Source: an uncultured Clostridia bacterium
GTDB taxonomy: Bacteria > Bacillota > Clostridia > Oscillospirales > Acutalibacteraceae
Reading direction: 5' to 3'
Length of the DNA: 61,935 nt
Assembly (NCBI GenBank): GCA_947632385.1
Contig: CANRPD010000005.1
Location: 1-61,935 of the forward strand
Shown: in pieces, positions 1,004 to 56,437 of the stretch
Layout of the letters: each line of letters begins with the position of its first letter
Position numbering within the stretch: the stretch's first letter is position 1
Made by a program: the position numbers and the translations under genes
Notes under the pieces: model-generated
What the model saw: only the letters and a program-made list of their open reading frames with translations
What the model was told of the DNA's origin: nothing
Databases searched by the model: none

Positions 1004-2151
1004 AGCCCCTGCACCAACTTTGCCTTAAACACCATGCAGGCGTGGGGCTCCACCCGAGCTGCGTAGCGCTCGGTAAACCTGCCCTCTGTCTCATGCGTCC
1101 AGCAGTTGTACAGCTCCAGACCAACGCCCGCTGCGGCGGGAATGCCCATATCCCAGAACTGCAGGGAGATCTCATTTCTCCGATCGGAGAGATTGAACAA
1201 TCCAATGGCCAGCTCGCCGGTGCTCAAAGGCTTCACCAGAATGAACTGTTCGTCATTGTTTCCGTTGATGCGATACGGACCGCGGCACTCCACATCCTGG
1301 TTGATCGCCAGCAGATCCGGGTTGGTGAGGGTGGCCTTGGTCTCGTCGCTCATGGAACGGATATCGCAGCCGATCATCAAAGGAGAATTCATCATGCACC
1401 ACAGGGCAAAATGCGTACGGTATTCTTCGTCGGTACATCCGCCCAAAGACCCGATCCATTCATTGTTGCTGCCGCCGTGCATGCCCACCACCAGCATGTC
1501 GATATCGTTGTGGCAGAAGGGGCCGGAGAACGCCATTTTCTGCATCTGCGACTGTGCCAGGTTCTTGATAGACTCCCAGTTGTCCTGGATATCTCCGGTG
1601 GATCGGAACAGGTGGGCACCGCTTCCCTGGATCCAGCTGTGTACATCCTCGGTTCCCCAGTTGCAAGCTGAGAAGAGGATATCCCTGCCGCAGTTGCGCA
1701 GTGCCAAGGACATCCGCTTGTAGAGGGTCTCACAGTCGATGTGCTTGGGTTTGTAGCAGTTGTCATATTTCAGATAATCCACGCCCCAGGCTGCGAAAGT
1801 AGCAGCATCCTGGAACTCGTGCTCAAAGCTGCCGGGATAGCCGGCGCAGGTGTGGGTACCGCAGCAGGAGTACATACCGAACTTGAGCCCCTTTGCGTGC
1901 ACATAGTCCGCCACAGCCTTCATACCATGGGGGAACTTCTCGGGATCCGGCACCAAAAAGCCGTTTTCATCCCGCTGGCGCAGGCTCCAGCAGTCATCGA
2001 TGACCACATACTCATACCCGGCGTCCTTCAGACCACTGGACACCATGGTGTCAGCGGTCTCTTGGATGAGCTGTTCGCTGACATTCCAGGTGAAGGTATT
2101 CCAGGAATTCCAGCCCAGAGGGGGCGTCAGCCCTAAAAATTTCTCATGCAT
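1000..2151 (-). CDS. alpha-galactosidase, glycoside hydrolase family 27
   Basis: Retaining glycosidase expected to remove terminal alpha-1,6-galactose from raffinose-type sugars or galactomannan side chains. The N-terminus carries the GH27 signature (PLGWNSWNTF). The nucleophile is the Asp of YLKYDNC (about D130) and the acid/base is the second Asp of NDIDML (about D218). At 383 aa it is a normal GH27 catalytic domain plus a short beta domain, with no signal peptide, so it is probably cytoplasmic and needs an importer for its substrate. ATG 2151 is preferred over an in-frame ATG at 2199 because GGAGGAA sits just upstream and the promoter at 2202-2230 would leave no leader for the longer form. 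Confidence 0.93.
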   Translation of the reverse strand: MHEKFLGLTPPLGWNSWNTFTWNVSEQLIQETADTMVSSGLKDAGYEYVVIDDCWSLRQRDENGFLVPDPEKFPHGMKAVADYVHAKGLKFGMYSCCGTHTCAGYPGSFEHEFQDAATFAAWGVDYLKYDNCYKPKHIDCETLYKRMSLALRNCGRDILFSACNWGTEDVHSWIQGSGAHLFRSTGDIQDNWESIKNLAQSQMQKMAFSGPFCHNDIDMLVVGMHGGSNNEWIGSLGGCTDEEYRTHFALWCMMNSPLMIGCDIRSMSDETKATLTNPDLLAINQDVECRGPYRINGNNDEQFILVKPLSTGELAIGLFNLSDRRNEISLQFWDMGIPAAAGVGLELYNCWTHETEGRFTERYAARVEPHACMVFKAKLVQGL

Positions 2152-2201
2152 ACAGGGTTCCTCCGTGGATAAGTTGTCCGGTTTCTCCGGCTTCTGCACC
2201 C

Positions 2202-2230
2202 ATTGTACCGGCTTAGCTATAAAAAAGCAA
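2202..2230 (-). promoter_or_regulatory. sigma-A promoter of the GH27 operon
   Basis: TTGCTT (2230-2225), 17-nt spacer, TACAAT (2207-2202) on the minus strand, about 50 nt before the alpha-galactosidase ATG. Confidence 0.6.
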
Positions 2231-2335
2231 CAGAGGAATTTCGGATTTCATACCCAAAAATAATCCAGGTTGAGCAGGGAGACTGTGAACTCTGCCGGTA
2301 TTTGCAAGATTTGAAAAATAAAATTCAAAGATGCC

Positions 2336-2363
2336 TTGACAAATCTCAGATCCATGATAAAAT
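2336..2363 (+). promoter_or_regulatory. sigma-A promoter of metQNI
   Basis: A perfect -35 TTGACA (2336-2341) and a -10 TAAAAT (2358-2363) with a 16-nt spacer. Transcription would start near 2370, leaving a leader of about 358 nt before metQ. Confidence 0.75.
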
Positions 2364-2369
2364 AGACCC

Positions 2370-2571
2370 AATATCTTTCGTGAAAGGGAGGGTTTGTGCA
2401 TGCGCGTCAGCTTTCTGATGTTCGCTCTCTGCATGTGCGCGGATGATTTCATGCGCGCTTGTTTTGTTGCGCCCGCTTCCGATCCCTCCAGCCAAGCGAA
2501 AGTCTAGGCAACTGCCCAAGGCGTTTTCGTCTGTTTTCCGGGGGCTCATCGGAGCACCCGGTTATTTTTTT
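2370..2571 (+). promoter_or_regulatory. candidate attenuator/riboswitch leader of metQNI (no known class)
   Basis: Between the promoter and an intrinsic terminator lies a region that can fold: a closing stem pairs 2387-2392 (GGAGGG) with 2484-2489 (CCCTCC); inside it are a TCAG/CTGA hairpin (2407-2418) and a GC-rich hairpin (2437-2458). The terminator at 2538-2571 would switch expression off. The gene context suggests methionine, SAM or tRNA as the signal. I could not find the S-box core (GATGAAG...GGCAACC) or the T-box GGTGGNACCGCG motif, so the sensor class is unknown. The folding was done by eye. Confidence 0.5.
2538..2571 (+). terminator. intrinsic terminator inside the metQ leader
   Basis: CCGGG-G-GCTC pairs with GAGC-A-CCCGG around an ATCG loop (2538-2561), followed by TTATTTTTTT. 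It stands 157 nt before the metQ start codon, where an attenuator terminator would be expected. Confidence 0.7.
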
Positions 2572-2588
2572 GAGAGGAGCTCAGGAGA

Positions 2589-2645
2589 ATGAAGAACCTG
2601 CTTGCACAGCTGGTGAAAGCCAATTCGCTGAACGATCGAATGTGA
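2589..2645 (+). CDS. 18-aa leader ORF with strong ribosome site
   Basis: ATG 2589 to TGA 2645 encodes an 18-residue peptide (MKNLLAQLVKANSLNDRM). GAGAGGAG lies about 10 nt upstream, a better ribosome site than many real genes here have. It comes just after the attenuator terminator and before metQ, so it is made only on read-through. The only internal Met is its last residue, so it is not an obvious methionine-stalling leader peptide. It could be a coupling ORF, a small protein, or chance. No family is recognised. Confidence 0.4.
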   Translation: MKNLLAQLVKANSLNDRM

Positions 2646-2727
2646 CCCGTTGCGTTCGTTTCGTATCAGCAGTACCGGGCAGCTTGCCCGACCAATCTAT
2701 TTATTTCAATGTGGAAGGAAGATTATC

Positions 2728-3579
2728 ATGAAAAAGATCCTCTCTGTTGTTTTGATCCTCGCCCTGGCCGTTTCCTGTCTTTGCGGGCTGGCCGCCTGCG
2801 GCAGTCAAGCCGAGATCAGCATTTCCGTGCCCAACGACGCCACCAATGAAGCCCGTGCTCTGATGCTGCTGGAGCAGCTGGGGTACATCCGTCTCAAGGA
2901 GGGCGCCGGCATCACCGCCACCATTCAGGATATCGCCGAGAACCCGCACAACATCAAATTCAACGAGGTGGAAGCAGCCCAGGTGCCCAGCACGCTCCAG
3001 GACGTGGACTACGCCATCATCAATTCCAACTATGCTCTTTCTGCCGGTCTGGACCCGGTCAGCCAGTCTCTGGCTCTGGAAGGTTCCTCCTCCGCCTATG
3101 GCAACGTGCTGGCAGTGAAGGATGGCAACCAGGATTCTGACCGGATCAAGGCGTTGGTAGCCGCCCTGGAGAGCCAGCAGGTGGCTGACTTTATCACCCA
3201 GACGTATTCCGGCTCTGTGGTATCCACAGTGGAAGCGCCTACCGACGGCTACGATCCCACCATCAATTACGACGCCCTCTCCGGTGAGACGATCTCCGTT
3301 GCGGCCTCCCCCACGCCCCATGCAGAGATCCTGGCCATTGCTAAGGACATCCTGGCCGCCAAGAACATTACCCTGGACATCCAGGAATACAATGACTATG
3401 TGATCCCCAACAACGTGGTGGAAGACGGTACGGTGGATGCCAACTACTTCCAGCATGTCCCCTACATGAACGATTTCAACGCCCAAAACGGCACCCACCT
3501 GGTGGCTGTCTCCACGATCCATGTGGAACCCTTGGGCCTCTACGGCGGCAAACAGAACTCTCTGGATGCCCTAAAGTAA
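2728..3579 (+). CDS. metQ: MetQ methionine-binding lipoprotein, circularly permuted
   Basis: Substrate-binding lipoprotein of a methionine ABC importer. Residues 1-23 are a lipoprotein signal peptide with lipobox LAAC and lipidated Cys24. The two halves of the NlpA/MetQ fold are in reversed order. Residues about 29-165 match what is normally the C-terminal half (VPNDATNEARAL, ENPHNIKF, EAAQVP, NSNYAL). After a linker (about 166-185), residues about 187-283 match what is normally the N-terminal half (SPTPHAEIL, YNDYVIPN, DANYFQH, EPLGLY), ending at the SLDALK that in normal MetQ leads straight into VPND. Total length (283 aa) is normal. ATG 2728 is preceded by GGAAGGA. metN follows 7 nt later. 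Confidence 0.9.
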   Translation: MKKILSVVLILALAVSCLCGLAACGSQAEISISVPNDATNEARALMLLEQLGYIRLKEGAGITATIQDIAENPHNIKFNEVEAAQVPSTLQDVDYAIINSNYALSAGLDPVSQSLALEGSSSAYGNVLAVKDGNQDSDRIKALVAALESQQVADFITQTYSGSVVSTVEAPTDGYDPTINYDALSGETISVAASPTPHAEILAIAKDILAAKNITLDIQEYNDYVIPNNVVEDGTVDANYFQHVPYMNDFNAQNGTHLVAVSTIHVEPLGLYGGKQNSLDALK

Positions 3580-3586
3580 TCAAAGT

Positions 3587-4600
3587 ATGATCGAACTGCG
3601 CAATCTTTCCAAAACCTTTCGCACTGCCGACGGTACCGTGGAAGCGTTGCGGGACGTGAGTCTCACAGTGGAAGACGGGGATATCTTTGGCATCATCGGC
3701 ATGAGCGGCGCTGGCAAAAGCACCCTGGTCAGGTGTATCAATATGCTGGAGCGGCCCAATTCCGGTAGTGTGCTCATCGATGGACAGGATCTTTCCCTCC
3801 AGCCCGATCGGGTGCTACGCCGTGTCCGCCGGGAGATCACCATGATCTTTCAAGGATTCAATCTACTGATGCAGCGTACCGTCCTTAAGAACGTCTGCTT
3901 CCCGCTGGAACTGGCCGGCGTACCCAAATCCCAGGCCCGTACAAGGGCACTGGAGCTGCTGCAGACCGTCGGCTTGTCGGACAAAGCCAACGCCTATCCC
4001 GCTCAGCTGTCCGGCGGGCAAAAGCAGCGAGTGGCCATTGCACGCGCACTTGCGACCGACCCCAAAGTGCTGCTCTGTGACGAAGCCACCAGCGCATTGG
4101 ATCCCTCCACCACGGTCTCCATTTTGGAGCTGATCCGCCAGATCAATGAAAAGACTGGTATCACGGTGATCATCATCACGCACCAGATGTCCGTGGTGGA
4201 AAATGTCTGCCGCCATGTGGCCATTCTGGACAGTGGCAGGGTGGTGGAACAGGGCGAGGTCGCTGAGGTCTTTGCGCACCCCAAGTCCAAGGCTGCCCGG
4301 GATCTGGTATTTCCGGAGGACAGCGAGGGGGCTCTGCGCGTGGGCAGCGGAGACGCTCAATATATCCGAGTGGTCTTCAACGGCGCAGATGCAGCCGGAA
4401 AGCCCCTTATCGCCCACATGGCGGTGGAAAAAGGCATCGAGGCAAGCATCGTCTACGCCTCCACGCGCAGCATCAACGGCAAGGTCTACGGCTCTATGCT
4501 GTTGGGTGTTTCCGGCGGAGAAGGGGTTACCCGGTCAGCCGTCGAATATCTCACCAACACGCCCTCTGTGGCCGCCGAGGAGGTGACTTTGGATGCTTGA
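3587..4600 (+). CDS. metN: methionine ABC transporter ATP-binding protein MetN
   Basis: ATPase that powers methionine import with MetI and MetQ at the inner face of the membrane. It shows Walker A GMSGAGKST (38-46), signature LSGGQKQ (141-147) and Walker B with catalytic Glu in VLLCDE (161-166). The C-terminal 90 or so residues fit the NIL regulatory domain, where methionine binds to inhibit transport. At 337 aa it has the usual length. It overlaps metI by 8 nt, so the two are probably coupled in translation. Confidence 0.96.
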   Translation: MIELRNLSKTFRTADGTVEALRDVSLTVEDGDIFGIIGMSGAGKSTLVRCINMLERPNSGSVLIDGQDLSLQPDRVLRRVRREITMIFQGFNLLMQRTVLKNVCFPLELAGVPKSQARTRALELLQTVGLSDKANAYPAQLSGGQKQRVAIARALATDPKVLLCDEATSALDPSTTVSILELIRQINEKTGITVIIITHQMSVVENVCRHVAILDSGRVVEQGEVAEVFAHPKSKAARDLVFPEDSEGALRVGSGDAQYIRVVFNGADAAGKPLIAHMAVEKGIEASIVYASTRSINGKVYGSMLLGVSGGEGVTRSAVEYLTNTPSVAAEEVTLDA

Positions 4601-5303
4601 CAGTTTGTTTTCCCAAGAGGGTTGGCAGGAGGCACTGGAGGTCCTCACGCAGTTTCCCTTAGCCATCTGGGAAACGGTCTATGTGACGGTACTGGCCATC
4701 TTCTTTGCCATTCTGCTGGGACTGCCGCTGGGCGTTCTCCTGGTGGTAGGCGGCGAAAACGGCATCCTGCCGCTTCCCCGCCCCGTCATGCGCATCCTGG
4801 ATGTGGGGATCAACCTGCTGCGATCCGTGCCCTTTCTGATTCTCATGATTCTGGTCTTCCCTCTGACCCGTCTGATCATCGGCACCATCGTGGGCACAAC
4901 AGCCTCTATTGTTCCCCTGGTCATCGCGGCGTTTCCCTTTGTGGCTCGATTGGCGGAATCCAGTCTCCGGGAGGTCGATCCCAATGTCATCGAGATGGCC
5001 CAGAGTACCGGGGCAACGCCCTTCCAGATCATCACCCGGGTCCTCATCCCGGAAAGTGTTCCCTCCCTGATCTCCAATGCCACCATTGCGCTGACCACTA
5101 TTTTGGGATACAACGCCATGAGCGGTATCATCGGAGGCGGCGGGCTGGGCAAGATCGCTATCAACTACGGCTATTACCGCTACAAGTTTCTCATCATGTT
5201 CCTGGCGGTGATCTGCCTGATCGTGCTGGTACAGGTGTTCCAGAGCATGGGTACCCGGCTGGCCCGGCGGGCGGATAAACGCCTCAAAAATCAAAATCCA
5301 TAA
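4593..5303 (+). CDS. metI: methionine ABC transporter permease MetI
   Basis: Integral membrane permease of the MetNIQ importer (binding-protein-dependent transport, BPD_transp_1 family). The 236-aa sequence has about five hydrophobic helices and the EAA-type coupling region (near ALREVDPN...EMAQSTGATPFQII) that contacts MetN. It is the last gene of the operon and is followed by a terminator at 5321. Confidence 0.95.
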   Translation: MLDSLFSQEGWQEALEVLTQFPLAIWETVYVTVLAIFFAILLGLPLGVLLVVGGENGILPLPRPVMRILDVGINLLRSVPFLILMILVFPLTRLIIGTIVGTTASIVPLVIAAFPFVARLAESSLREVDPNVIEMAQSTGATPFQIITRVLIPESVPSLISNATIALTTILGYNAMSGIIGGGGLGKIAINYGYYRYKFLIMFLAVICLIVLVQVFQSMGTRLARRADKRLKNQNP

Positions 5304-5320
5304 ACCTCTAGAAAGGCCAA

Positions 5321-5358
5321 CAGGGACTGCCCTCAAGCGGGGGCAGTCCCTGTTTTTA
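5321..5358. terminator. bidirectional terminator after metI
   Basis: A 13-bp stem (5321-5333 with 5342-5354) followed by TTTTT on the plus strand. It sits between convergent genes and reaches the stop codon of the minus-strand gene. Confidence 0.85.
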
Positions 5359-5898
5359 CCAGTTCACCCGAATCTCGCATTTTTCTCCACCGGATTTGAT
5401 GCTTTCCAGCAGTTCAACCTCCACCTCTTTTTGGAACAGCTCCCGGAAGATGCCCCGGGCATTTCCCAACGTGCAGAGGCACCAGGTGCGGTAGAGCGTC
5501 CCCGGCACCCGCTTGACACAGGCGCAGTAGCATTCTGGGTAACAGAAGTGCAGCTCGTTCTCCGAAATGTAGGCAAGACTGGCAAAGGTCTCATGGGCAT
5601 TGAAGTCTTCCACAAAATCTTGGAGCGTATCCGCCCTGTTCAGATATGTACGCAGCTTCTCGGCGATAGCCTTCCCGTCATTGCACCGGCAATCCATGCG
5701 CACCCGACGGATGGTCATCTCATCGAAGCGTTCCTCCAGCGCCCCGCACACGGCTTCTGCCCAGGCGAATTTCTTCCCGACATCCGCGCTTTTGGAGAGA
5801 GGGTACTTCACTTCAAACTCTCGGGCTGCCTCCTCCCCCACGTTCTCCCGCAGGCTCTGTATCAATCGCAAGGAATGGGCGTTGTCGTTTTTGGGCAT
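5356..5898 (-). CDS. cysteine-rich protein of unknown function
   Basis: A 180-aa soluble protein I do not recognise with certainty. It has clustered cysteines: CRC near residue 70, then CYPECYCAC and CLCTLGNARG in the C-terminal half, suggesting metal or cofactor binding, as in several small clostridial DUF families (it may be DUF6144-like, unverified). ATG 5898 is chosen because GAAGGGAGAAGAG lies just upstream; the open frame extends further but without a ribosome site. It stands alone between two terminators. Confidence 0.7.
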   Translation of the reverse strand: MPKNDNAHSLRLIQSLRENVGEEAAREFEVKYPLSKSADVGKKFAWAEAVCGALEERFDEMTIRRVRMDCRCNDGKAIAEKLRTYLNRADTLQDFVEDFNAHETFASLAYISENELHFCYPECYCACVKRVPGTLYRTWCLCTLGNARGIFRELFQKEVEVELLESIKSGGEKCEIRVNW

Positions 5899-24428: not shown

Positions 24429-26627
24429 TCACGCCCCCAGGCAGTCCGCCCGCAGGCCCGCAAAGTCCAGAAAATCCTCCACATACTGCTTGCGCAGCAG
24501 CTCCTGGGGCACGAACTCGTTGTACTTCCCCCGGATCTGCACCTGCTCCGGCAGGGGCAGGGTGTTGAGGTCCGGCTCCTCGGCCAGGATCTCCCGGATC
24601 TCCGCTTCCAGCCCGGCCTGTCCCCCGTCATACACCACCTCCAGGTACACACAGGTGGGCCAGGGCATCCGGCTCTGGATCCCCCGGGCCCGCAGCAGCA
24701 GGTGCAGCGTGGTCAGCTGCCGGGTCCCCACCCAGGGGAAGACCGCGAATTTCCGCTCCGAAAGGGCCGTCACAAGCCGGTCTAAGACCCCCGCGTTCCG
24801 GGTGATGAACCGGATCTCCTCCAGCCGCTGGGCGCAGCCCTCGCTGAGGTAGGGATACGTCTCGTCCCCCTGCAGGATGCTCCGCAGCTTCTGCACCAGC
24901 ACGGTGTGCAGCTCCGTGTCGAAATCCACGTCCCAGTCCACCACAGAGATCCCCGGCACCTTTTTCACGAACAGCACTTTCGAGCGCTCGTTCACCTCCA
25001 CCGTCTCCCAGGACATCCCCGCCAGGGCGAACCGCGTCCCCACCGGGTACACCTTGTCCACGGTGCCGATGGTCCGATTCTCGTCCTTCACCAGCAGGTA
25101 TTCCGAGGCCTCGAACACCGTGAGGAACTTGTAGCTGTTGGCAACCTTTTCCCCTTCCCGCCCCAGGATCAGCCCGCCCCGCTCGGTCCGTTCCAGCTGG
25201 TCCGTGTCCAGCAGGTGCCGCAGCAGCAGCCGGTAGTCCTCCTGGGTGACCGCCCGGAAGGGCCCCAGGGTCAGCACGTCCTGGGCCAGCCGTGCAGGAG
25301 ACAGCTCCCCGCAGCTCTTCAGGTGGCTCATGGTCTGGTGATACACCAGGTCATAGGGGTGCCGCCGGGGCTGGATGGGCTCCACCCAGTGCTCCCGCAG
25401 GTACAGCTGGATGATGGCGATGGTGCGGATGAACTCCCAGTTCACCGGGCCCAGGGTCTGGTCCGCGTTCACCTTCAGGTCCTCCACAAAGGTGAACAGC
25501 AGCCGGGGGATCTGCCCCCGCCGGCCGCACCGGCCCAGCCGCTGGGCAAAGCTGGAGACCGTGGCCGGCGCGCCGATCTGCACCACCTGGTCCAACGAGC
25601 CGATGTCGATGCCCAGCTCCAGGGTCACCGTGGCCCCGGTGACGATCTTCTGGTCCGGGTCCCGCATCTCCTCCTCGGTGTTCTCCCGCAGCAGGGCGGA
25701 GACGTTCCCGTGGTGCACCCGGTACACGTCCGGGGCCTTGCGCTCCAGGGCGATCTGCCGCAGGTTCGCCATCACCAGCTCCGTCTCCTCCCGGGAATTG
25801 GTGAACAGGATGGTCTTGCGGTCCAGGGTGTTCCGGAACAGGTACTCGTACATCTGCCGGGTGCCGGCCTGGGCGGCGGAAAGGGCCGTGTCCGTCCCCT
25901 CGTCCCGGGGCTCGTCCCGCTTGTCCGCCACGTTCACGAACCGCTCCACATGCAGCCCGATGCGCTTTTTCCCCTCGGGCATCACCGGCGCCTGGCACCG
26001 CCGGTGGGTCCCCGTGCACAGCCACTGCTGGGCCAACGTCACGTCCCCCAGGGTGGCGGAGAGCCCGATGCGCCGGGGGAACACCCCCGTCAGCTGCTGC
26101 AGCCGCTCCAGCACGCACAGCAGCTGCACCCCCCGGGCGTCCCGCATGAAGTAGTGCACCTCGTCGATGATCACATACCGCAGGTCGGAAAACAGCTTGA
26201 GGCACGTCCCCCGCTTGTGGGTCAGCAAACTCTCCAGGCTCTCCGGGGTGATCTGCAGCAGCCCCCGGGGCTTCTTCACCAGCTTGTTTTTGGCCGTCAC
26301 CGAGGCGTCCCCGTGCCACTTGGTCACCGGCAGGTCCGAGCGGGCCAGCAGGCCGTCCAGGCGCTTGAACTGGTCGTTGATGAGGGCCTTCAGGGGGGAG
26401 ATGTACATCACCCCCACCGAGGCGGCGGGCCGCTGGGTCAGGTCCGTGAGCACCGGGAGAAAGGCGGCCTCGGTCTTGCCGGAGGCCGTCCCGGAGGACA
26501 GCAGCAGGTGGTCGTCCGTGTCGAGAACGGTCTCGATGGCCGCCACCTGGATGGCCCGCAGCCCCTCCCAGCCGCTCTCGTAGATGTAGTCCTGGATAAA
26601 CGGCGCCAGGCGGGAAAATGCATCCAT
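24429..26627 (-). CDS. Lhr/BrxHI-like DEAD/DEAH-box helicase
   Basis: Superfamily 2 helicase. Walker A is GTASGKT (46-52), motif II is DEVH (155-158), motif III is LSATLGD, and motif VI is in AQRLGRCGRRG. The long C-terminal half (about residues 400-732) fits the Lhr-type winged-helix and beta-sheet regions. At 732 aa it is the size of BrxHI, the Lhr-like helicase of type 2 BREX, where it accompanies BrxD. ATG 26627 lies 4 nt after the brxD-like stop. No PglX, PglZ or methylase is present. Confidence 0.88.
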   Translation of the reverse strand: MDAFSRLAPFIQDYIYESGWEGLRAIQVAAIETVLDTDDHLLLSSGTASGKTEAAFLPVLTDLTQRPAASVGVMYISPLKALINDQFKRLDGLLARSDLPVTKWHGDASVTAKNKLVKKPRGLLQITPESLESLLTHKRGTCLKLFSDLRYVIIDEVHYFMRDARGVQLLCVLERLQQLTGVFPRRIGLSATLGDVTLAQQWLCTGTHRRCQAPVMPEGKKRIGLHVERFVNVADKRDEPRDEGTDTALSAAQAGTRQMYEYLFRNTLDRKTILFTNSREETELVMANLRQIALERKAPDVYRVHHGNVSALLRENTEEEMRDPDQKIVTGATVTLELGIDIGSLDQVVQIGAPATVSSFAQRLGRCGRRGQIPRLLFTFVEDLKVNADQTLGPVNWEFIRTIAIIQLYLREHWVEPIQPRRHPYDLVYHQTMSHLKSCGELSPARLAQDVLTLGPFRAVTQEDYRLLLRHLLDTDQLERTERGGLILGREGEKVANSYKFLTVFEASEYLLVKDENRTIGTVDKVYPVGTRFALAGMSWETVEVNERSKVLFVKKVPGISVVDWDVDFDTELHTVLVQKLRSILQGDETYPYLSEGCAQRLEEIRFITRNAGVLDRLVTALSERKFAVFPWVGTRQLTTLHLLLRARGIQSRMPWPTCVYLEVVYDGGQAGLEAEIREILAEEPDLNTLPLPEQVQIRGKYNEFVPQELLRKQYVEDFLDFAGLRADCLGA

Positions 26628-26631
26628 ACCG

Positions 26632-27948
26632 TCACACCTCGAATTCCTGGAACTCCTGGTGGAGCTCCTCCTCGGACAGCCCGCCCTTGGAGAGGGTGAA
26701 GCTGTTGGAGCCCAGCACCCCGGCCACCGTGGCCCCGGGGTTCTGGTGGAGGATGTTCACCAGCTCGATGAAGTCCCGGATGATCTCCCGGGGGGTGATG
26801 TGGGTGTCCGCGCCCACCCGGTTGTATTCCACCGTCAAAAAGGTCAGCAGCTCCTCCCGGCCCAGGGTGGGGGCATAGCCGTACAGCCCCGCGTGGATGT
26901 CCCGCAGCTTCTCCACCAAGATGTACATCTCCTCCTGAGAGAGCATTTTCAGGGGGATGATGGGGGCGGAGAGGTCCTTGAACTCCTCGGTGGCAAAGTG
27001 GCCCTGGCTCAGCCGGGAACGCAGCGCCTCGTAGCTGAAAATCCCCCGATACCGGTCCTCCACGCACTGGGGCGTGCCCCCCAGCAGGAACCCGATGTGC
27101 TCCGCCTTGCCCTGGAGCACGTCGTTGTACATGGTCAAAATTTTCTCGTAGTTGTTGGCCCGGGTCACGGCGTTGGGGATCTTGTACAGGTTCACCAGCT
27201 CGTCGATGAGCACCAGCAGCCCCCGGTACCCCGCCTCGGTGAGGAAGGCCGCGAAGAGCTTGAGGAAATCGTACCAGGTCTCGTCGTTGACGATGAAGTG
27301 GATGCCCAGGTCCCGCCGGGCCTCGGTGCGTGTGGGGTACTCCCCCCGGAACCACCGCAGCACGTTGGATTTCAGGGCCCCGTCGTCCTCCCGGTAGGCC
27401 CGCCAGTACAGGGCCACCGCCCGGGCGAACTCGAACCCGTTCACCATCCCCTCCAAAGACCCCGCCACGGCGTAGATCCGCTGCTCCACCAGCCGGTCGA
27501 AGGCCTCTCCCTCCGCGCCGGTCTCGGCCTTCACCGCCGTCTGGATCCCCGCGATCCACCGCTCCAGGATCAGCGGCAGAGCGCCGCCGTCGGGCTTCGC
27601 CTTCACCGAGAGGTTGCGGATGAGCTCCTTGTACGTGGCCAGGCCCTGCCCCTTGGTGCCGGCAAACCGCCGCTCGGGGGAGAGATCGGCGTCCACCACG
27701 GCAAAGCCCCGGGCCGTGGCGTAGTTGCGCACGGTCTGGAGCAGAAAGCTCTTTCCGCTGCCGTATTTGCCCACGATGAACCGGAAGGACGCGCCCCCCT
27801 CCCCGATGAGATCGATGTCCCGGAGGATGGCCTCGATCTCCTGCCGGCGGCCCACCGTGATGTATTCCAGCCCCACCCGGGGCACCACGCCGCTCTTCAA
27901 GGCGGTCATCAGGATATTGGCCACCCGGGGCGGCACCTTAGTCGCCAT
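26632..27948 (-). CDS. BrxD-like ATP-binding protein (DUF2791 family)
   Basis: P-loop ATPase of the BrxC/BrxD group (DUF2791). Walker A is GKYGSGKS (60-67), Walker B is in LLVLIDELVNL (near residue 245), and a sensor-like GFLLGGTPQ follows. Length (438 aa) matches BrxD. ATG 27948 follows AAGGAGATG and overlaps the end of the TerB-domain gene by 11 nt. In BREX, BrxD-type ATPases work with a helicase on DNA; here the rest of BREX is missing. Confidence 0.88.
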   Translation of the reverse strand: MATKVPPRVANILMTALKSGVVPRVGLEYITVGRRQEIEAILRDIDLIGEGGASFRFIVGKYGSGKSFLLQTVRNYATARGFAVVDADLSPERRFAGTKGQGLATYKELIRNLSVKAKPDGGALPLILERWIAGIQTAVKAETGAEGEAFDRLVEQRIYAVAGSLEGMVNGFEFARAVALYWRAYREDDGALKSNVLRWFRGEYPTRTEARRDLGIHFIVNDETWYDFLKLFAAFLTEAGYRGLLVLIDELVNLYKIPNAVTRANNYEKILTMYNDVLQGKAEHIGFLLGGTPQCVEDRYRGIFSYEALRSRLSQGHFATEEFKDLSAPIIPLKMLSQEEMYILVEKLRDIHAGLYGYAPTLGREELLTFLTVEYNRVGADTHITPREIIRDFIELVNILHQNPGATVAGVLGSNSFTLSKGGLSEEELHQEFQEFEV

Positions 27949-29863
27949 GCTGCTCAAACATCTCCTTCACTTGGGCTTCGTAGTCCTCGTAGAGGACCAG
28001 GTCTTCGTCCAGCAGGCTGTCCCCCACCCGGTCCAGGGCCTTTTCGTTGATGCCTTCGGCCAGGACCTCCGGCAGCAGGCCGTTTTCCGCCGCGAACCGG
28101 TCCACCGGCTCTCCTCCCGCCGCCCGGGCCAGCGCCCCCCGCTCCAGGGGGTCGAGGGAGGCGTACAGGGCCTGCCACGGGTCGGTCTCGGCGGCATTTG
28201 CGGGGGCAGCGGCGGGGCTGGGGCCCAGTTCGTGCAGATCGGGGGCCTGCGCCGGTGCGCCCCGGTCCCAAACGGCCAGCGGGGCGCTGGGGGCCGGTTC
28301 GAGACCGGTTGGGGCCCCATTTTGGGGGGCAGCGGCGGGGCTGGGACCCGGTCCGTGCAGATCGGGGGTCTGCGCCGGTGCGCCACTCTCCAAAAAGTCC
28401 AGCGGGGCGCTGGGGGCCGGTTCGAGACCGGTTGGGGACCCATTTTGGGGGGCAGCGGCGGGGCTGCGACCCAGTCCGTGCAGATCGGGGGTCCTTTCCA
28501 AGGGCGGCTCGGAGATCGGGCCGGGCAGGGCCTCCTCCACGGTGAGGGCCTGCTGGGTGGCGTCCGCGTCCACCCGGATGCGGGACAGGGCCGCCTCGTC
28601 CACCCGGACCTCCACCCGGGTGGCCTGCCGGTAGGCCTCCGCCGCCAGGCGGTCCACCAACGCCCCGGGGGCAATGCCCAGCCGGCTCAGGGCCCGGCGC
28701 AGCTCGGGATCCAGGATGCTCTCCTCCGCGTGGAGGGCGAACCGGTACCCCGCCGCCCGGCGCACCGCGGCCTCGGTGCGCTTCATGACGAAGCTCACCA
28801 GGGTCTTGCCCCGGCGGGTGGCCAGGGCGGTGGAAAAGCTCCACACGTCCTCCCGGCAGAGGTACACCTCCCGCCGGGAAAGGACCACCGTGCGGTCGGG
28901 CTGGTGCAGCCAGGGGCAGAACAGCGCCCCCTTGAAGGGGGTCCAGCGGGCGGTCTTTTTCGTGGGGACGTACAGGGCCTCGTCCAGATCCAGACCGGCC
29001 TGCTCCAGGGCGGCGTCCAGGCCGTCCAGCACCGCCAGCACGCAGGTCTCCAGCAGCTGCTGGGTCTCCGGCGTGCAGAAACGGGACTTTTTCAGGTCGT
29101 AGGTGGACAGTTTCGCGTAAAAACCGAAGCCCTCGTCGTCCCGGGCCAGTTCGGGGTAGCGTTCCAGCAGGCCCTTCTCCCGGGCAAAGTCCTCGAAGCT
29201 GCGGCCCAGGGGGTAGTAGATGTGGAAATCCTTGAGCCAGCGCAGCACGTACTTGTCCACCGCCGGGTCCAGGGGGCGGTAGGCCTGCCAAAAGGCATAC
29301 AACTGCTCCAGCCCCCCGGCGGGGTCCGGGGCGCCGATGCAGTGGAGCAGCTCATACAGATACAAAAAGGCGTAGGAGAGGCCGGTCTTCTCCACCCGGC
29401 CTGCCCGCACCCGGGTGCGCCAGGTGAAGTAGGTGCGCAGCTGGCGGTAGCCCAGCATCTGGTAGTTGGGAAAATAGGCGGAAAAGTCGGCATAGCCCGC
29501 CCAGTCGTCGGTGAAATCCGCCATGAACTGGGCCTGGCGGTAGAAAATGCGGGCGTTTTCCCGCTGCACGGCCCGGTCGAAGAACCGCTGGGCGGGGATG
29601 TAGGGCATCCGGTACTGCCGGGCGATGTCCCGCATTTGGAGAAACCGCTCCCGCACCGGGTCGGGGCCGGGCGTCTCCAGAGGCTGAGGGGACCGCACGT
29701 ACCGCCCCACCCCCGGGATGGGGCCCTGCTCGTAGTCCAGCTCGTAGAAGGGGACCTCCCCTGGGGGCGCGGGGGGACGCTTCTCCGAGGGGGCCGGGGC
29801 GGGCTCCGAAGCGGGGACGCCCCGGGGGGGCAGCTTTTGGGCCCGGTAGTTTTTCCCATTCAT
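27938..29863 (-). CDS. TerB-N/TerB-C domain protein with tandem-repeat linker
   Basis: A 641-aa protein. The N-terminal part (about residues 40-230) and the middle fit the TerB-N domain type (RQYRMPYIPAQRFFDRA, GYRQLRTYFTWRTRVRAG). Residues about 455-554 are a Pro/Ala-rich linker of 41-residue repeats, and the last 90 or so residues resemble a TerB-C-like helical end (LLPEVLAEGINEKALD). TerB-N/TerB-C proteins are reported next to AAA ATPases and SF2 helicases in DNA-processing stress or defence islands, as here. ATG 29863 is favoured by GGGAGGGAACGGG upstream. First gene of the operon. Confidence 0.8.
   Translation of the reverse strand: MNGKNYRAQKLPPRGVPASEPAPAPSEKRPPAPPGEVPFYELDYEQGPIPGVGRYVRSPQPLETPGPDPVRERFLQMRDIARQYRMPYIPAQRFFDRAVQRENARIFYRQAQFMADFTDDWAGYADFSAYFPNYQMLGYRQLRTYFTWRTRVRAGRVEKTGLSYAFLYLYELLHCIGAPDPAGGLEQLYAFWQAYRPLDPAVDKYVLRWLKDFHIYYPLGRSFEDFAREKGLLERYPELARDDEGFGFYAKLSTYDLKKSRFCTPETQQLLETCVLAVLDGLDAALEQAGLDLDEALYVPTKKTARWTPFKGALFCPWLHQPDRTVVLSRREVYLCREDVWSFSTALATRRGKTLVSFVMKRTEAAVRRAAGYRFALHAEESILDPELRRALSRLGIAPGALVDRLAAEAYRQATRVEVRVDEAALSRIRVDADATQQALTVEEALPGPISEPPLERTPDLHGLGRSPAAAPQNGSPTGLEPAPSAPLDFLESGAPAQTPDLHGPGPSPAAAPQNGAPTGLEPAPSAPLAVWDRGAPAQAPDLHELGPSPAAAPANAAETDPWQALYASLDPLERGALARAAGGEPVDRFAAENGLLPEVLAEGINEKALDRVGDSLLDEDLVLYEDYEAQVKEMFEQHGD
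28202..28500. repeat. in-frame 123-bp tandem repeats (about 2.4 copies)
   Basis: Units start at 28202, 28325 and 28448, giving a period of 123 bp (41 codons). Copies 2 and 3 share long identical stretches, including a GCGCTGGGGGCCGGTTCGAG block, so the expansion is recent. The repeats stay in frame within the TerB-domain gene. Confidence 0.9.
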
Positions 29864-29915
29864 GGCGATCCCGTTCCCTCCCCCCGCGAAGGCCCCATGG
29901 GTCTCCACACTACAT

Positions 29916-50716: not shown

Positions 50717-50775
50717 AATAGGCTGATGGGGTGTGCGCAGGCGAGAGCTCCCCGGAAAGGCAGGTACACGAGTTT

Positions 50776-52617
50776 ATGTGCGGTTTTGTTGGGTTTACCG
50801 GACAAGAGCAAAAAGAGGGCGTCCTGAAAGCAATGACCGACGCCATTGCCCACCGCGGCCCGGACGACGCAGACTACTACGCCGACAGCGGCATTTCTTT
50901 GGGATTCAGACGGCTGTCCATCATCGATCTGGCGGGCGGCCGCCAACCCATCCTTAACGAAGACGGCACCAAGGTGCTGGTCTTCAACGGGGAAATATAC
51001 AACTTTCAGTCCATTCGAGAGGACCTTCTGGCCGCCGGTCATGTGTTCAAGACCCGGGCCGACTCGGAAGTGCTGCTCCACGGGTATGAGGAATACGGGA
51101 CCGACCTGCTCAACCGGCTTCGCGGCATGTTCGCCTTCGTGATCTGGGATAAGGAAAAGCAGGAGCTGTTCGGCGCCCGGGACTTTTTCGGCATCAAGCC
51201 CCTTTATTATGCCCAGATGGGCGGCACCTTCCTGTTCGGGTCCGAGATCAAGGCGTTTCTCCATCACCCGGATTTCAAGAAAGAGCTGAACACCCGGGCC
51301 CTGGAAAATTATCTCTCCTTCCAGTATTCTCCCGGACCAGAGACCTTCTTCAAAAACGTTTACAAGCTGCCCCCCGCCCACTACTTCACCTATCGGGACG
51401 GGAAGATGGAGATCACTCGGTACTGGCTGCCCACCTTCCATGCCGAAGAGGACAAGCCGTTGGAGTATTGGGTAGATGCCATTGAAAAGACCTTTGACGA
51501 CTCTGTGGAGGCCCACAAAATCAGCGATGTGGAGGTGGGTTCGTTCCTGTCCTCCGGGGTGGATTCCAGCTATGTGGCCTGTTCTGCCGACGTGGACAAG
51601 ACCTTCACCGTGGGCTTTGACAACGGGACCCAGTACAACGAGATCAGCTACGCCGAGGAGCTCTCCAAGCTCATCCCGGTGAAGAACATCAGCAAAGTCA
51701 TCACCCCCGAGGAGTTTTGGGGCAACTTTGCGAAGATCCAGTATCACATGGACGAGCCGCTGGCGGATCCCTCCGCTGTGGCCCTGTACTTCGTTTGCAA
51801 CACCGCTGCCAAGTATCTGAAGGTGGTGCTCTCCGGCGAAGGCGCCGACGAGATCTTCGGCGGGTACAATATTTACAAAGAGCCGCTGGAACTGCCCTGG
51901 TACGATCGGATCCCCTTCCCGATCCGGCGATTCATCGGCAAGGTGGCCTCTCTGCTGCCCGCGCATCGGGGGCTCAATTTCCTGGTACGCAGAGGCAAGC
52001 GCCTGGAAGAACGGTTTATTGGAAATGCCTATATGTTTACCCAAAAGGAGCGCCGGGCTATCTTAAAAATTCCCTCGGAGGTGCCTGCTCCCGAAGTGCT
52101 TACCCGGCCCTATTATGAGATGGTCCGGGACAAGGACGCCGTCACCAAAATGCAGTTTGTCGACCTCAATATGTGGATGGTGGGCGATATCCTCTTAAAG
52201 GCCGACAAGATGAGCATGGCCAATTCCCTGGAGCTGCGCGTACCCTTCCTGGATAAGGAGATCATGGCGCTGGCAGGCCGCATTCCCCTGAAATACCGGG
52301 TGAACAGCGAGAACACCAAATATGCCATGCGTCAGGCGGCCGCCCGGCGGATGCCGGAAAAGTGGAGCGGCAAAAAGAAGCTGGGTTTCCCGGTGCCCAC
52401 CCGGGTCTGGCTGAAGGAAGATAAGTATTACGGCATCGTCCGGGAAGCGTTTGAGAGTCCGGCCGCACAGCGATTCTTCCACACGGAAAAGCTGATCAAA
52501 CTGCTGGATGACCACCGAGCCGGCAGGGCAGACAACAGCCGCCGGGTCTGGACGGTGTACACGTTCCTGGTCTGGTACGGCGAATTTTTCAAGGAGGAAA
52601 CGACCCATGCGAACTGA
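50776..52617 (+). CDS. asnB: glutamine-dependent asparagine synthetase-like amidotransferase (copy 1)
   Basis: A 613-aa AsnB-type enzyme. The N-terminal class II glutaminase has Cys2 (MCGFVGF), RRLSIID and NGEIYN; the C-terminal ATP-pyrophosphatase domain has FLSSGVDSSYV and SGEGADEIFGG. AsnB paralogs can amidate other carboxylates, including D-Asp or mDAP in peptidoglycan (AsnH, LtsA). Context favours such a role. ATG 50776 begins directly with the nucleophile Cys. The ATP-grasp gene overlaps its end by 11 nt. Confidence 0.92.
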   Translation: MCGFVGFTGQEQKEGVLKAMTDAIAHRGPDDADYYADSGISLGFRRLSIIDLAGGRQPILNEDGTKVLVFNGEIYNFQSIREDLLAAGHVFKTRADSEVLLHGYEEYGTDLLNRLRGMFAFVIWDKEKQELFGARDFFGIKPLYYAQMGGTFLFGSEIKAFLHHPDFKKELNTRALENYLSFQYSPGPETFFKNVYKLPPAHYFTYRDGKMEITRYWLPTFHAEEDKPLEYWVDAIEKTFDDSVEAHKISDVEVGSFLSSGVDSSYVACSADVDKTFTVGFDNGTQYNEISYAEELSKLIPVKNISKVITPEEFWGNFAKIQYHMDEPLADPSAVALYFVCNTAAKYLKVVLSGEGADEIFGGYNIYKEPLELPWYDRIPFPIRRFIGKVASLLPAHRGLNFLVRRGKRLEERFIGNAYMFTQKERRAILKIPSEVPAPEVLTRPYYEMVRDKDAVTKMQFVDLNMWMVGDILLKADKMSMANSLELRVPFLDKEIMALAGRIPLKYRVNSENTKYAMRQAAARRMPEKWSGKKKLGFPVPTRVWLKEDKYYGIVREAFESPAAQRFFHTEKLIKLLDDHRAGRADNSRRVWTVYTFLVWYGEFFKEETTHAN

Positions 52618-53836
52618 TTTTGTCCCCGTGCTGCTGGGCAGTGACATCAATGTATACGGCATGGCCCGGTCCTTCCACGAGGCGTATGGGATCCCGTCGG
52701 TGGCCATCGGAAAAGGCGTTCTGGGTCCCTGCACAGCCAGCTCTATCGTGCATGTAGAGGTGGTGGAACCCCGACTGGAAGAGGACGCAGTCTTTGTGCA
52801 GACACTGCTGGATTTTGCCGCCCGGTATCGGGACTCGAATCAAAAGCTTTTGCTGGTCCCCTGCGGAGACAACTATGCCAAGCTGGTGGTACGCAATCAG
52901 GACGCCCTGCGGGGGACATACGCTTTCTCCTGCTCGACCCCGGAGCTGATGAATCAGCTGACCGACAAGGAGACCTTCTACCGCGTGCTGGACCGTCACG
53001 GGATCCACTATCCCAAGACCACCACCTGCTCTTTTGAAGGCCATAAGGACCTGCAGCTGCCCTTCGATTTTCCCATTGTGATCAAGCCCTCCAATTCCGT
53101 GGCCTACTGGAACTGTAAATTTCCCCACAAGAAGAAGGTCTTTGTCGCCCAAAGCCGGGGCGAAATGGAGGCGATTCTGACGGCGATCTATTCCTCCAGC
53201 TACAAAGATCATCTGATCCTCCAGGAATACATCCCCGGGGATGACAGCGCCATGCGGGTAATGAACTGCTACTGCGGCCAAGACCGCAAGGTGAAGCTCA
53301 TCTCCCTGGGACATGCGCTGCTGGAGGAACATTCCCCGGAGGGCATCGGCAGCTATGCCGCCATCATCAGCGACCGGGACGACCGCATCGGCGATATGAT
53401 CCGGGATTTTCTGGAAGACGTGGGCTATGTGGGCTTTGCCAATTTCGATATGAAATATGACTGCCGGGACGGCCAGTACAAGCTGTTTGAAATGAATCCC
53501 CGACAGGGGCGCAGCAGCTATTTTACCACCGCAGCTGGGTATAACCTGGCCCAGTGGCTGGTGGAGGATGTTCTGGACAGGAAGAATCTGCCCTGCACCG
53601 TGGCGGAAAATCGGGTGCTTTGGAGTCTGATCCCCAAGGGCATTCTCTATCGCTATGTGTCCGATCCCACGCTGAAAAAAGAGGCTAAGGCGCTCATTCA
53701 GGCTGGAAAATACCGGCAGTGCTATTACTATGAGGGGGACCGGTCCTTCAAGCGCTGGATGCATTATCGGCGCAATCAGCTCAACTATTACAGCAAGTAC
53801 AGACGCTATTTCGGAAACAAGGGCCTCACCGACTGA
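52607..53836 (+). CDS. ATP-grasp carboxylate-amine ligase (D-aspartate ligase-like)
   Basis: A 409-aa ATP-grasp enzyme. FDFPIVIKPSNSVAYW, LILQEYIPGDDSAMRV and MKYDCRDGQYKLFEMNPRQGRSS are the ATP-grasp strands and metal-binding residues. It lies between an amidotransferase and an Asp/Glu racemase, the arrangement of D-aspartate ligase genes (AslA/Aslfm), which add D-Asp to the stem-peptide side chain in lactic bacteria. The assignment comes from context; sequence alone says ATP-grasp ligase. Confidence 0.8.
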   Translation: MRTDFVPVLLGSDINVYGMARSFHEAYGIPSVAIGKGVLGPCTASSIVHVEVVEPRLEEDAVFVQTLLDFAARYRDSNQKLLLVPCGDNYAKLVVRNQDALRGTYAFSCSTPELMNQLTDKETFYRVLDRHGIHYPKTTTCSFEGHKDLQLPFDFPIVIKPSNSVAYWNCKFPHKKKVFVAQSRGEMEAILTAIYSSSYKDHLILQEYIPGDDSAMRVMNCYCGQDRKVKLISLGHALLEEHSPEGIGSYAAIISDRDDRIGDMIRDFLEDVGYVGFANFDMKYDCRDGQYKLFEMNPRQGRSSYFTTAAGYNLAQWLVEDVLDRKNLPCTVAENRVLWSLIPKGILYRYVSDPTLKKEAKALIQAGKYRQCYYYEGDRSFKRWMHYRRNQLNYYSKYRRYFGNKGLTD

Positions 53837-54583: not shown

Positions 54584-56437
54584 ATGTGCGGATTTGTAGG
54601 CTTTTTGAATACGCCGGAGCTTCGGGAACCCGACCGGGTCCTCCGTGCAATGGCAGACCGCATCGCCCACCGAGGCCCGGACGACGCAGATTATTACCGG
54701 GACGATCGGATCAGCCTTGGGTTCCGCAGGCTTTCCATCATCGACCTGGCGGGTGGCCGGCAGCCTCTGCGCAACGAGGACGGCAGCAAGGTCCTGGTCT
54801 TCAACGGGGAGATCTACAATTATCAGGCCCTGCGGGAAGACCTGCTGCAAAGGGGCCATGTATTCACCACCAAGAGCGACTCCGAGACCATCCTCCACGG
54901 CTACGAGGAATTCGGCAAGGACATTTTGCAAAAGCTGCGGGGCATGTTCGCTTTTGTCATCTGGAACAAGGAAAAAGAGGAGCTTTTCGGGGCCCGGGAT
55001 ATCTTTGGCATCAAGCCGTTTTACTACTATCAAAACGACGAGCAGTTCCTTTTCGGATCGGAGATCAAATCCTTTCTCTCCCATCCAGGGTTCAAAAAGG
55101 AATTGGACGAGGAGAAGATCCCCGAATATCTGTCCTATGAGTACATTCCCTATGAGAACACCATCTTCAAAAACGTGTACAAGCTGCCCGGGGCCCATTG
55201 TATGACCTATCGGGACGGGAAACTGACCGTAGAACGGTACTACCGCATCCGGTACAGCATCGAAGAGGACCGGTCTCAGGAATACTGGGAAGAACAGATC
55301 CAGAAAGAATTTGAAGAATCCGTGGCCATGCATCAGATCAGCGATGTGGAAGTGGGCTGTTTCCTCTCCTCCGGGGTGGATTCCAGCTACGTGGTCCGGG
55401 AGATCAGCAAAGGTACCGAAAAAGTCAAGACCTTTTCGGTAGGGTACACGGAAGAAAAATACAGTGAGCTGCCCTATGCCCAGGAGTTCTCCCAGGAGAT
55501 CGGCGTCCCCAACATCGCGAACAAGGTCAGTGCGGACGATTTTTTCGACGCCATGCCGGAGATCCAGTATTTCATGGATGAGCCCCTGCCCAACCCCTCG
55601 GAAATTCCTCTGTATTTTCTGGCTAAAAATGCCCGGCAATACGTAAAGGTGGTACTTTCCGGAGAAGGCGCCGACGAGCTGTTTGGTGGGTACCCCATGT
55701 ACCTGCAGGGCGGGCATTTTGCCAACTATGAGAAGAAAGTACCCAGGCCCTTCCGCAAGCTGGCGGGGGCCGTGGCCGGAGCCCTGCCGGAATTCAAGGG
55801 CAAGCATTTTTTGATGCGGGGTGCGCAGCAGCCCTATCAGCGGTTCATGCGAGCCAATTATGTGTTCCAGGAAAAAGAGCGGCAAAAGTACTTGAAACGG
55901 CCCATCACGTCCAAACCCCCAGAGGAATACAGCAAACGGTATTTTGATGAGGTGCCGGACCTGGACGAGCCCACTCAGCTCCAGTATGTGGACATGCACA
56001 CCTGGATGATCTATGACATCCTGCTCAAGGCCGACCGGATGAGCATGGCCAATTCCCTGGAACTGCGGGTGCCGTTCCTGGATAAAAAAATGCTGGAGCT
56101 CTCCACCCGCATCCCCAGCCGGTACCGTGCCGACTGCGCCACCGAAACCACCAAAAAGGCCCTGCGGGGGGCCGCTTTCAAACAGCTGCCGGAAAAAACG
56201 GCAACGCGCAAAAAGCTGGGCTTTCCGGTGCCGCTTTCCGACTGGCTGCGACAGGACAAGTACTATGAAAAAGTCAAAGCTGCTTTCCAGAGCGACATTG
56301 CTGAAAAATTCTTCATCACGGACGAATTGATGAAGCTGCTGGACGATCACAAGGCCGGCCGGGCGCTCAACATGCAGAAGATCTGGTCTTTTTACACCTT
56401 TATCGTGTGGTATGAGCAGTTCTTTGTGAAAAACTGA
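54584..56437 (+). CDS. asnB: glutamine-dependent asparagine synthetase-like amidotransferase (copy 2)
   Basis: A 617-aa paralog of the first gene, 12 nt after the racemase. It has the same Cys2 glutaminase (MCGFVGFL), FLSSGVDSSYV and SGEGADELFGG. The two copies align along their full length, so the cluster has an internal duplication or a paired specialisation. ATG 54584 follows GGAGGAAG. It is followed by a terminator at 56598. Confidence 0.92.
   Translation: MCGFVGFLNTPELREPDRVLRAMADRIAHRGPDDADYYRDDRISLGFRRLSIIDLAGGRQPLRNEDGSKVLVFNGEIYNYQALREDLLQRGHVFTTKSDSETILHGYEEFGKDILQKLRGMFAFVIWNKEKEELFGARDIFGIKPFYYYQNDEQFLFGSEIKSFLSHPGFKKELDEEKIPEYLSYEYIPYENTIFKNVYKLPGAHCMTYRDGKLTVERYYRIRYSIEEDRSQEYWEEQIQKEFEESVAMHQISDVEVGCFLSSGVDSSYVVREISKGTEKVKTFSVGYTEEKYSELPYAQEFSQEIGVPNIANKVSADDFFDAMPEIQYFMDEPLPNPSEIPLYFLAKNARQYVKVVLSGEGADELFGGYPMYLQGGHFANYEKKVPRPFRKLAGAVAGALPEFKGKHFLMRGAQQPYQRFMRANYVFQEKERQKYLKRPITSKPPEEYSKRYFDEVPDLDEPTQLQYVDMHTWMIYDILLKADRMSMANSLELRVPFLDKKMLELSTRIPSRYRADCATETTKKALRGAAFKQLPEKTATRKKLGFPVPLSDWLRQDKYYEKVKAAFQSDIAEKFFITDELMKLLDDHKAGRALNMQKIWSFYTFIVWYEQFFVKN

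Follow-up and report, generated by a model that had tools for sequence, protein, structure and literature searches.

Natural circular permutations are often noticed between distant relatives, and the event itself is then hard to reconstruct. Among lipidated ABC binding proteins, a natural circularly permuted example with demonstrated glucose binding is TpMglB-2 of Treponema pallidum, a Type I sugar-binding protein with relatives in treponemes and gut Gram-positives; its permuted part matches the parent poorly (13% identity), and its authors leave another gene as a possible source of that part (PMC4990184). Permutation relations have likewise been found by structure among the glycine betaine-binding OpuAC (2B4L) and ProX (1R9L, 1SW1), distant entries with less than 24% identity in any pair (PMC2395249). 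For MetQ, no account of a permuted form was found among the matches listed in a search of titles and abstract openings of the openly licensed literature, a body that leaves most subscription papers and preprints outside; within that scope, the remark of an earlier note on this DNA that no permuted MetQ had been described still holds.

Here, we analysed a window (the whole stretch of DNA under study) of 61,935 nucleotides from an uncultured Clostridia bacterium, in which the earlier note had read one gene as a circularly permuted metQ. The analysis makes it very probable that this gene encodes the binding lipoprotein of a MetNIQ importer, the only MetQ found, and that the protein was permuted at its lobe boundary, probably by duplication and fusion.

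Reversed order of the two MetQ parts

By its translation, the open reading frame (ORF) at 2728..3579 (+) encodes a MetQ/NlpA lipoprotein of 283 aa. A Pfam search matched PF03180 in two stretches, profile positions 99–234 at window 2818–3225 (159.9 bits) followed by profile positions 1–96 at window 3292–3579 (101.8 bits). Together these stretches cover positions 1–96 and 99–234, and the whole protein scored 257.1 bits against a gathering cut-off of 27. A phmmer search against PDB chains matched 22 sequences, every one in two stretches, and the order was reversed in all five alignments displayed among them; for 4k3f, query residues 31–166 aligned with chain residues 103–238 and query residues 186–282 with chain residues 2–98. 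Both searches showed that the linear order of the PF03180 parts is reversed, and we therefore class the protein as a permuted variant rather than a standard member of the family. The swap of the two halves that the earlier note had proposed is borne out by these searches, including an alignment of the parts to MetQ chains, a check of the kind that it had recommended.

Among 133 distinct MetQ ORFs, 78 had the order C-N and 2 the order N-C-N (80 permuted in all), and 53 had the standard order N-C; identical ORFs were counted once, so that some loci were dropped, and the sampling is uneven, so these counts are not a frequency. The 80 permuted ORFs and the E-values of the matches exclude a chance origin of the reversed order. 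These results confirm that the protein at 2728–3579 is a real, circularly permuted MetQ. Two NCBIfam MetQ/NlpA models scored it below their cut-offs (NF008285: 157.1 bits, cut-off 374; TIGR00363: 154.6 bits, cut-off 228.85), and the standard-order MetQ of locus L087 was likewise below them (181.3 and 174.3 bits).

The chain opens with a signal peptide (residues 1–23; 2728..2796, +), a helix over residues 2–23 in the structure model, which ends in the lipobox LAAC at Cys24 (2797..2799, +), the predicted lipidation site; signal peptide and lipobox are as normal as had been claimed. The first predicted strand (residues 30–35) follows five residues on. The former C-terminal part (residues 31–166, PF03180 99–234; 2818..3225, +) comes next, then a newly formed linker, about 20 residues long (residues 167–185; 3226..3282, +), and finally the former N-terminal part (residues 186–283, PF03180 1–96; 3283..3576, +). 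The protein is cut where the two lobes meet: the mature N-terminus runs directly into the strand preceding VPNDATNEARAL, SLDALK forms the C-terminus, and the cut costs only some two profile positions (between PF03180 96 and 99). The claim of the earlier note that the protein stops exactly where standard MetQ continues into VPND was slightly too precise, as L087 has about seven residues between SLDAL and VPND.

Predicted structure and linker

The AlphaFold2 model of the permuted MetQ had a mean pLDDT of 92.4 and a pTM of 0.81, and block means across the linker region were 90 (residues 161–170), 98 (171–180) and 98 (181–190). It predicts a two-lobed fold. The best structure matches of the model were MetQ, with the crystal structures covering about residues 27–168 in a sequence-order alignment (4qhq: 142 aligned, rmsd 1.7), and OpuAC and similar proteins, which are more distant than MetQ, aligned across residues 27–283. 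Foldseek and VIA-align are taken to align in sequence order, and a permuted superposition is therefore not directly visible from them. The structure prediction proposed in the earlier note thus gave a confident fold, to about one half of which MetQ structures align in sequence order.

In the linker, columns P, G, D, Y, L and G were invariant across 29 aligned junctions. Outside this set some linkers break the motif (e.g. L059, L107, L111, L124, L128–L131, L133 and L134), several of them differing at one of the six positions.

Methionine pocket, selection and copy number

In Neisseria meningitidis MetQ (NmMetQ), the methionine contacts are R156, N213, N238, Y81, F98, H100 and Y103 (PMC6739813). 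We mapped them onto the permuted protein by the offsets of its matches to 7mbz_E, inferring a one-residue gap in the C-part between R43 and N101. All seven contacts were retained on the plus strand of the window: Arg43 (2854..2856; R156, a contact of the methionine alpha group), Asn101 (3028..3030; N213), Asn126 (3103..3105; N238, E. coli N229, a key affinity residue), Tyr224 (3397..3399; Y81), and Phe241, His243 and Tyr246 (3448..3465; F98, H100 and Y103). The same residues were kept in 78/78 C-N ORFs, except F241 (77/78, with V in L106), and in 2/2 N-C-N ORFs; standard-order ORFs were more variable (F 42/53, H 44/53, N101 52/53). Judged by sequence, the permuted MetQ should bind methionine and serve in its transport.

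To this conservation is added purifying selection. For 15 pairs of permuted genes, two of which were not computable (L053/L056 and L001/L019), dN/dS was 0.025–0.088 in 12 of the 13 computable pairs and 0.214 in the other (L038/L040). The permuted metQ genes are under purifying selection. By the computational criteria available, the permuted metQ appears functional, and the claim of a working gene is supported at this level by selection, the conserved contact residues and the confident fold prediction.

A profile search of the source genome (76 contigs) found no second PF03180 match. The permuted gene was also the sole PF03180 match in 12/12 carrier genomes of one set and in 34/38 of another; the remaining four comprised one full standard copy (G265), one fragment at a contig end (G064) and two weak matches (G136 and G404, 23–24 bits).

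Genomic context

Family searches found metN (3587..4600, +), encoding an ABC ATPase (ABC_tran) with a C-terminal NIL domain, and metI (4593..5303, +), encoding the permease, adjacent and downstream of the permuted metQ, so the operon partners are normal, as had been stated. Across the main clade of permuted genes, metN lay directly downstream in 70/76 C-N ORFs. It was not found in the other six within the downstream DNA searched (109 bases for L041, 1263 for L134, and about 2.9 kb each for L042, L045, L046 and L048). At L048, a weak ABC-ATPase match stood alone in these ~2.9 kb. By contrast with this arrangement, metN preceded the standard gene in 29 of 53 ORFs and followed it in 11, with neither side assigned for the remaining 13.

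The four loci that lack metN at the score used over ~2.9 kb, the anchor on the other lobe and the loss of the lipobox in one subclade would all suit a permuted protein that has changed its substrate or become a receptor instead of an importer component. We consider such a change improbable, however, given the seven conserved methionine contacts and the metN that directly follows permuted metQ in nearly all main-clade loci.

An Rfam scan of window 2000–5500 found no methionine riboswitch or T-box; its sole match was to an unrelated viral family (22.5 bits, gathering score 43) and was rejected. Across 20 loci, made up of L053, L064 and 18 C-N loci from the main clade, the same search at gathering threshold returned two tRNAs as its sole matches and no methionine-responsive element.

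Elsewhere in the window, three minus-strand genes at 24429–29908 matched the PADLOC anti-phage defence proteins SngA (1.4e-62), SngB (1.3e-179) and SngC (5.1e-226), a system known as Shango. In the SngA-like protein, an insert rich in proline and alanine appears repetitive on inspection by eye. Two long plus-strand ORFs (50731–52617 and 54584–56437) are mutually similar by eye and are presumably paralogous asparagine synthetases; the ORF between them (52508–53836) seems to us to resemble an ATP-grasp enzyme.

Distribution of permuted MetQ

A genome scan matched at least 592 stretches, at least 574 of them relatives, from which the best 80 loci were retained. With each part used as a phmmer query against the full set of ORFs to call the order, 46 of these best 80 were permuted (L019–L064) and 34 standard (L065–L098). 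Within the window's genus (29 genomes), 2 genomes carried a permuted MetQ, 7 a standard one and 20 gave no match. A junction profile (A1) built from 29 rows matched 19/250 genomes and 13/135 genera of the window's family, 18/391 genomes of the class (ten family groups, including the window's own), 5/398 of the phylum sample (three across the whole junction and two on the N-part side only), and 2/101 in the family to which a Flexilinea-labelled genome belongs; the window's genome is common to the family, class and phylum samples, and G276 to the latter two. By record titles, many of the Clostridia carriers come from gut or rumen. Permuted and standard MetQs share roughly 40–69% identity per part. 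The search for further permuted homologs and their placement on trees, which the earlier note had also proposed, shows that permuted MetQ is no singleton but forms a clade that is widespread, chiefly among Clostridia.

This distribution bears on whether the gene could be an assembly chimera or a product of misjoined contigs. An artefact would fit the division of the source genome into 76 contigs and the word MAG in the titles of most records of permuted relatives. Nevertheless, the same order with a similar linker recurs in many separate assemblies, including one of a single contig (G657) and one of two (G503), and the permuted genes are under purifying selection. The independent assemblies refute a chimera, whose probability we regard as negligible, and uphold the statement that no assembly error is involved.

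Trees and a probable single origin of the main clade

With standard order restored and both parts included, the 76 main-clade C-N rows and the 2 N-C-N rows formed one clade (SH-aLRT 99). In the 121-row MetQ tree, a quick tree rooted at midpoint only, a standard group from Lachnospiraceae adjoined the permuted clade. When 65 rows were analysed by single parts, the main clade was not one side of a branch with either the N-part (2 changes) or the C-part (2 changes, forced by starred branches); both parts combined, the same rows gave it as one group with a support of 99. Partner MetIs from the main clade, represented by 36 C-N rows and L053, likewise grouped together (support 94), nearest to five standard MetIs of Oscillospiraceae (support 99). 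With Lachnospiraceae nearest by MetQ and Oscillospiraceae by MetI, the trees therefore disagree on the closest standard relative. The main clade looks like the result of one old event, followed by spread among Clostridia and into Anaerolineaceae-labelled genomes.

The L064 type and a second cut site

Two permuted MetQs stand apart from this clade. L064 comes from a record titled Neisseriaceae, from goat reticulum, and L146, 74% identical to it, from another genome in that family sample. Both are cut at the main-clade site, and their linker is different and carries no main-clade motif. Their metN lies upstream in 2/2 loci, their MetIs fall in a set separate from the main clade (29 rows, starred 99), and the 12 top matches listed for each part of L064, besides L146, are all MetQs of standard order from records titled Bacillota or Actinomycetota.

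We compared one-origin trees with free searches in two row sets, one of 72 rows (32/76 main C-N, 2 N-C-N, L064 and 37/42 standard) and one of 65 (24 main C-N, 2 N-C-N, L064, L146 and 37 standard). Trees that held all permuted MetQs together were not rejected and scored above the free search, with a gain of 15.37 log units for 72 rows (p-AU 0.712) and of 3.75 for 65 (p-AU 0.563). These tests, and the identical cut site, speak for a single event behind all permuted MetQs, L064 and L146 included, with the L064-type linker merely diverged. We find this doubtful, since the linker, the upstream metN, the separate starred set of MetIs and the best matches of L064 all point away from the main clade. 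We consider a separate origin of the L064 type likelier than a shared one, and the event may be independent.

A second cut site occurs in L053 and L056, whose order is N(48–96)-C-linker-N(1–49) with a linker of the main-clade type. The two share 98.8% DNA identity over 1213 bases, and their bins come from different runs. Together with one other main-clade row they form a starred set (95) in the 65-row analysis; by path, the row closest to them is L035, whose MetI also adjoins that of L053 (support 81). Holding the C-N rows together without L053/L056 (72 rows) was not rejected either (+8.80 log units, p-AU 0.617). The tree tests are thus compatible with a place inside or outside the C-N clade, and L053/L056 represent either a permuted gene that was permuted again or an ancestral fused duplicate that was trimmed differently. 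With L053 as query, 7 of the 59 genomes of its family sample matched at E 1e-70 or better, its own included, and the matches of the six others begin at residue 71–80, as the usual cut predicts.

Taken together, MetQ may have been permuted repeatedly: one old event whose product took on methionine uptake in many Clostridia, an independent L064-type event at the same lobe boundary in a Neisseriaceae-labelled lineage, and a third form in L053/L056 (re-permuted or trimmed differently), with the lobe roles exchanged and the anchor moved. We regard this combined history as an even call.

Route of permutation and position of the anchor

Duplication and fission-fusion have both been described as models of circular permutation (PMC3320104). 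Most likely, metQ was duplicated in tandem and the copies fused, after which the leading N-terminal part and the trailing C-terminal part would have been lost, with the cut between the two lobes. Signal peptide and lipobox would have stayed in front throughout, so that the lipid Cys is now followed by the former C-terminal part, the new linker and the former N-terminal part. The two-lobed fold and the inter-lobe methionine pocket would be retained in such a chain, which is therefore expected to close around methionine and hand it to MetI in the normal way, and a short tether would place the lipid anchor on what is usually the second lobe.

No fused N-C-N-C intermediate was seen among the junction matches of the family, class, phylum and Flexilinea-family samples, in which whole-junction matches had open frames of 279–371 aa. 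One candidate tandem fusion (G699) was rejected as an ordinary MetQ with a low-complexity tail, and in G684 two metQ-like genes are adjacent yet separate. The lack of a tandem intermediate and the near-completeness of both parts would also suit fission of the gene followed by fusion of its halves, without duplication. This route appears unlikely, because 0/133 distinct ORFs carried one part alone, no split MetQ occurred at these loci, and adjacent separate metQ genes (L093, L170) offer raw material for duplication, which we continue to prefer.

A pattern search found a lipobox in 58/78 C-N ORFs, with a median of 7 residues from Cys to the first part (range 3–38), and in 51/53 standard ORFs, with a median of 20 (range 4–49); the ranges overlap widely. 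Among the 20 unmatched C-N ORFs, the pattern overlooked one lipobox, LNGC in L107. The remaining 19 lack a Cys at the site and have endings like ALAD, which we read as suited to signal peptidase I, and they form one subclade of 19 rows in the 121-row tree (L039, L041, L042, L045–L048, L050–L052, L054, L055 and L057–L063). Five of the 19 sit in Chloroflexota-labelled records. In N. meningitidis, full stimulation of MetNI requires lipidation of MetQ (PMC8416018), and the authors of the TpMglB-2 study considered its permutation possibly adaptive to tethering (PMC4990184). The 19 lipobox-free members argue against adaptation to tethering as a general cause of the permutation in MetQ.

Discussion

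Permuted and standard MetQ are still close, at the identities given above, the permuted gene is the sole PF03180 match in most of the carrier genomes examined, a second origin may have occurred and a further cut site is present. In a well-studied transporter, these features make it possible to test the route of permutation, and also what lobe and anchor position are required by an ABC importer. The results also carry a warning for annotation: family profiles score reversed genes well above the cut-off and leave the reversal unflagged.

Compared with MetQ/NlpA (PF03180; E. coli 4YAH, N. meningitidis 6DZX/7MBZ), the protein is alike in the sequence of both parts and shares the seven contacts, the lipoprotein signal and the MetN (NIL) and MetI partners. 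It differs from standard MetQ in the swapped part order, the new linker of about 20 residues, the anchor that probably sits on the other lobe, and a tether shorter at the median (7 versus 20 residues, with wide overlap). The family search matched PF03180 only, the PDB sequence matches were to MetQ chains and the best structure matches were MetQ, which sets the protein outside the class of TpMglB-2 (Type Ic), with its Type I sugar-binding fold and permuted N lobe. The permuted part of TpMglB-2 matches its parent poorly, whereas the permuted MetQ has high identity to MetQ in both parts. OpuAC and ProX resemble it in being a case of permutation among binding proteins, but offer neither a close standard/permuted pair nor a map of the event. 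Permuted binding proteins of other families are thus already known, and the permuted MetQ is a fresh, well-resolved instance.
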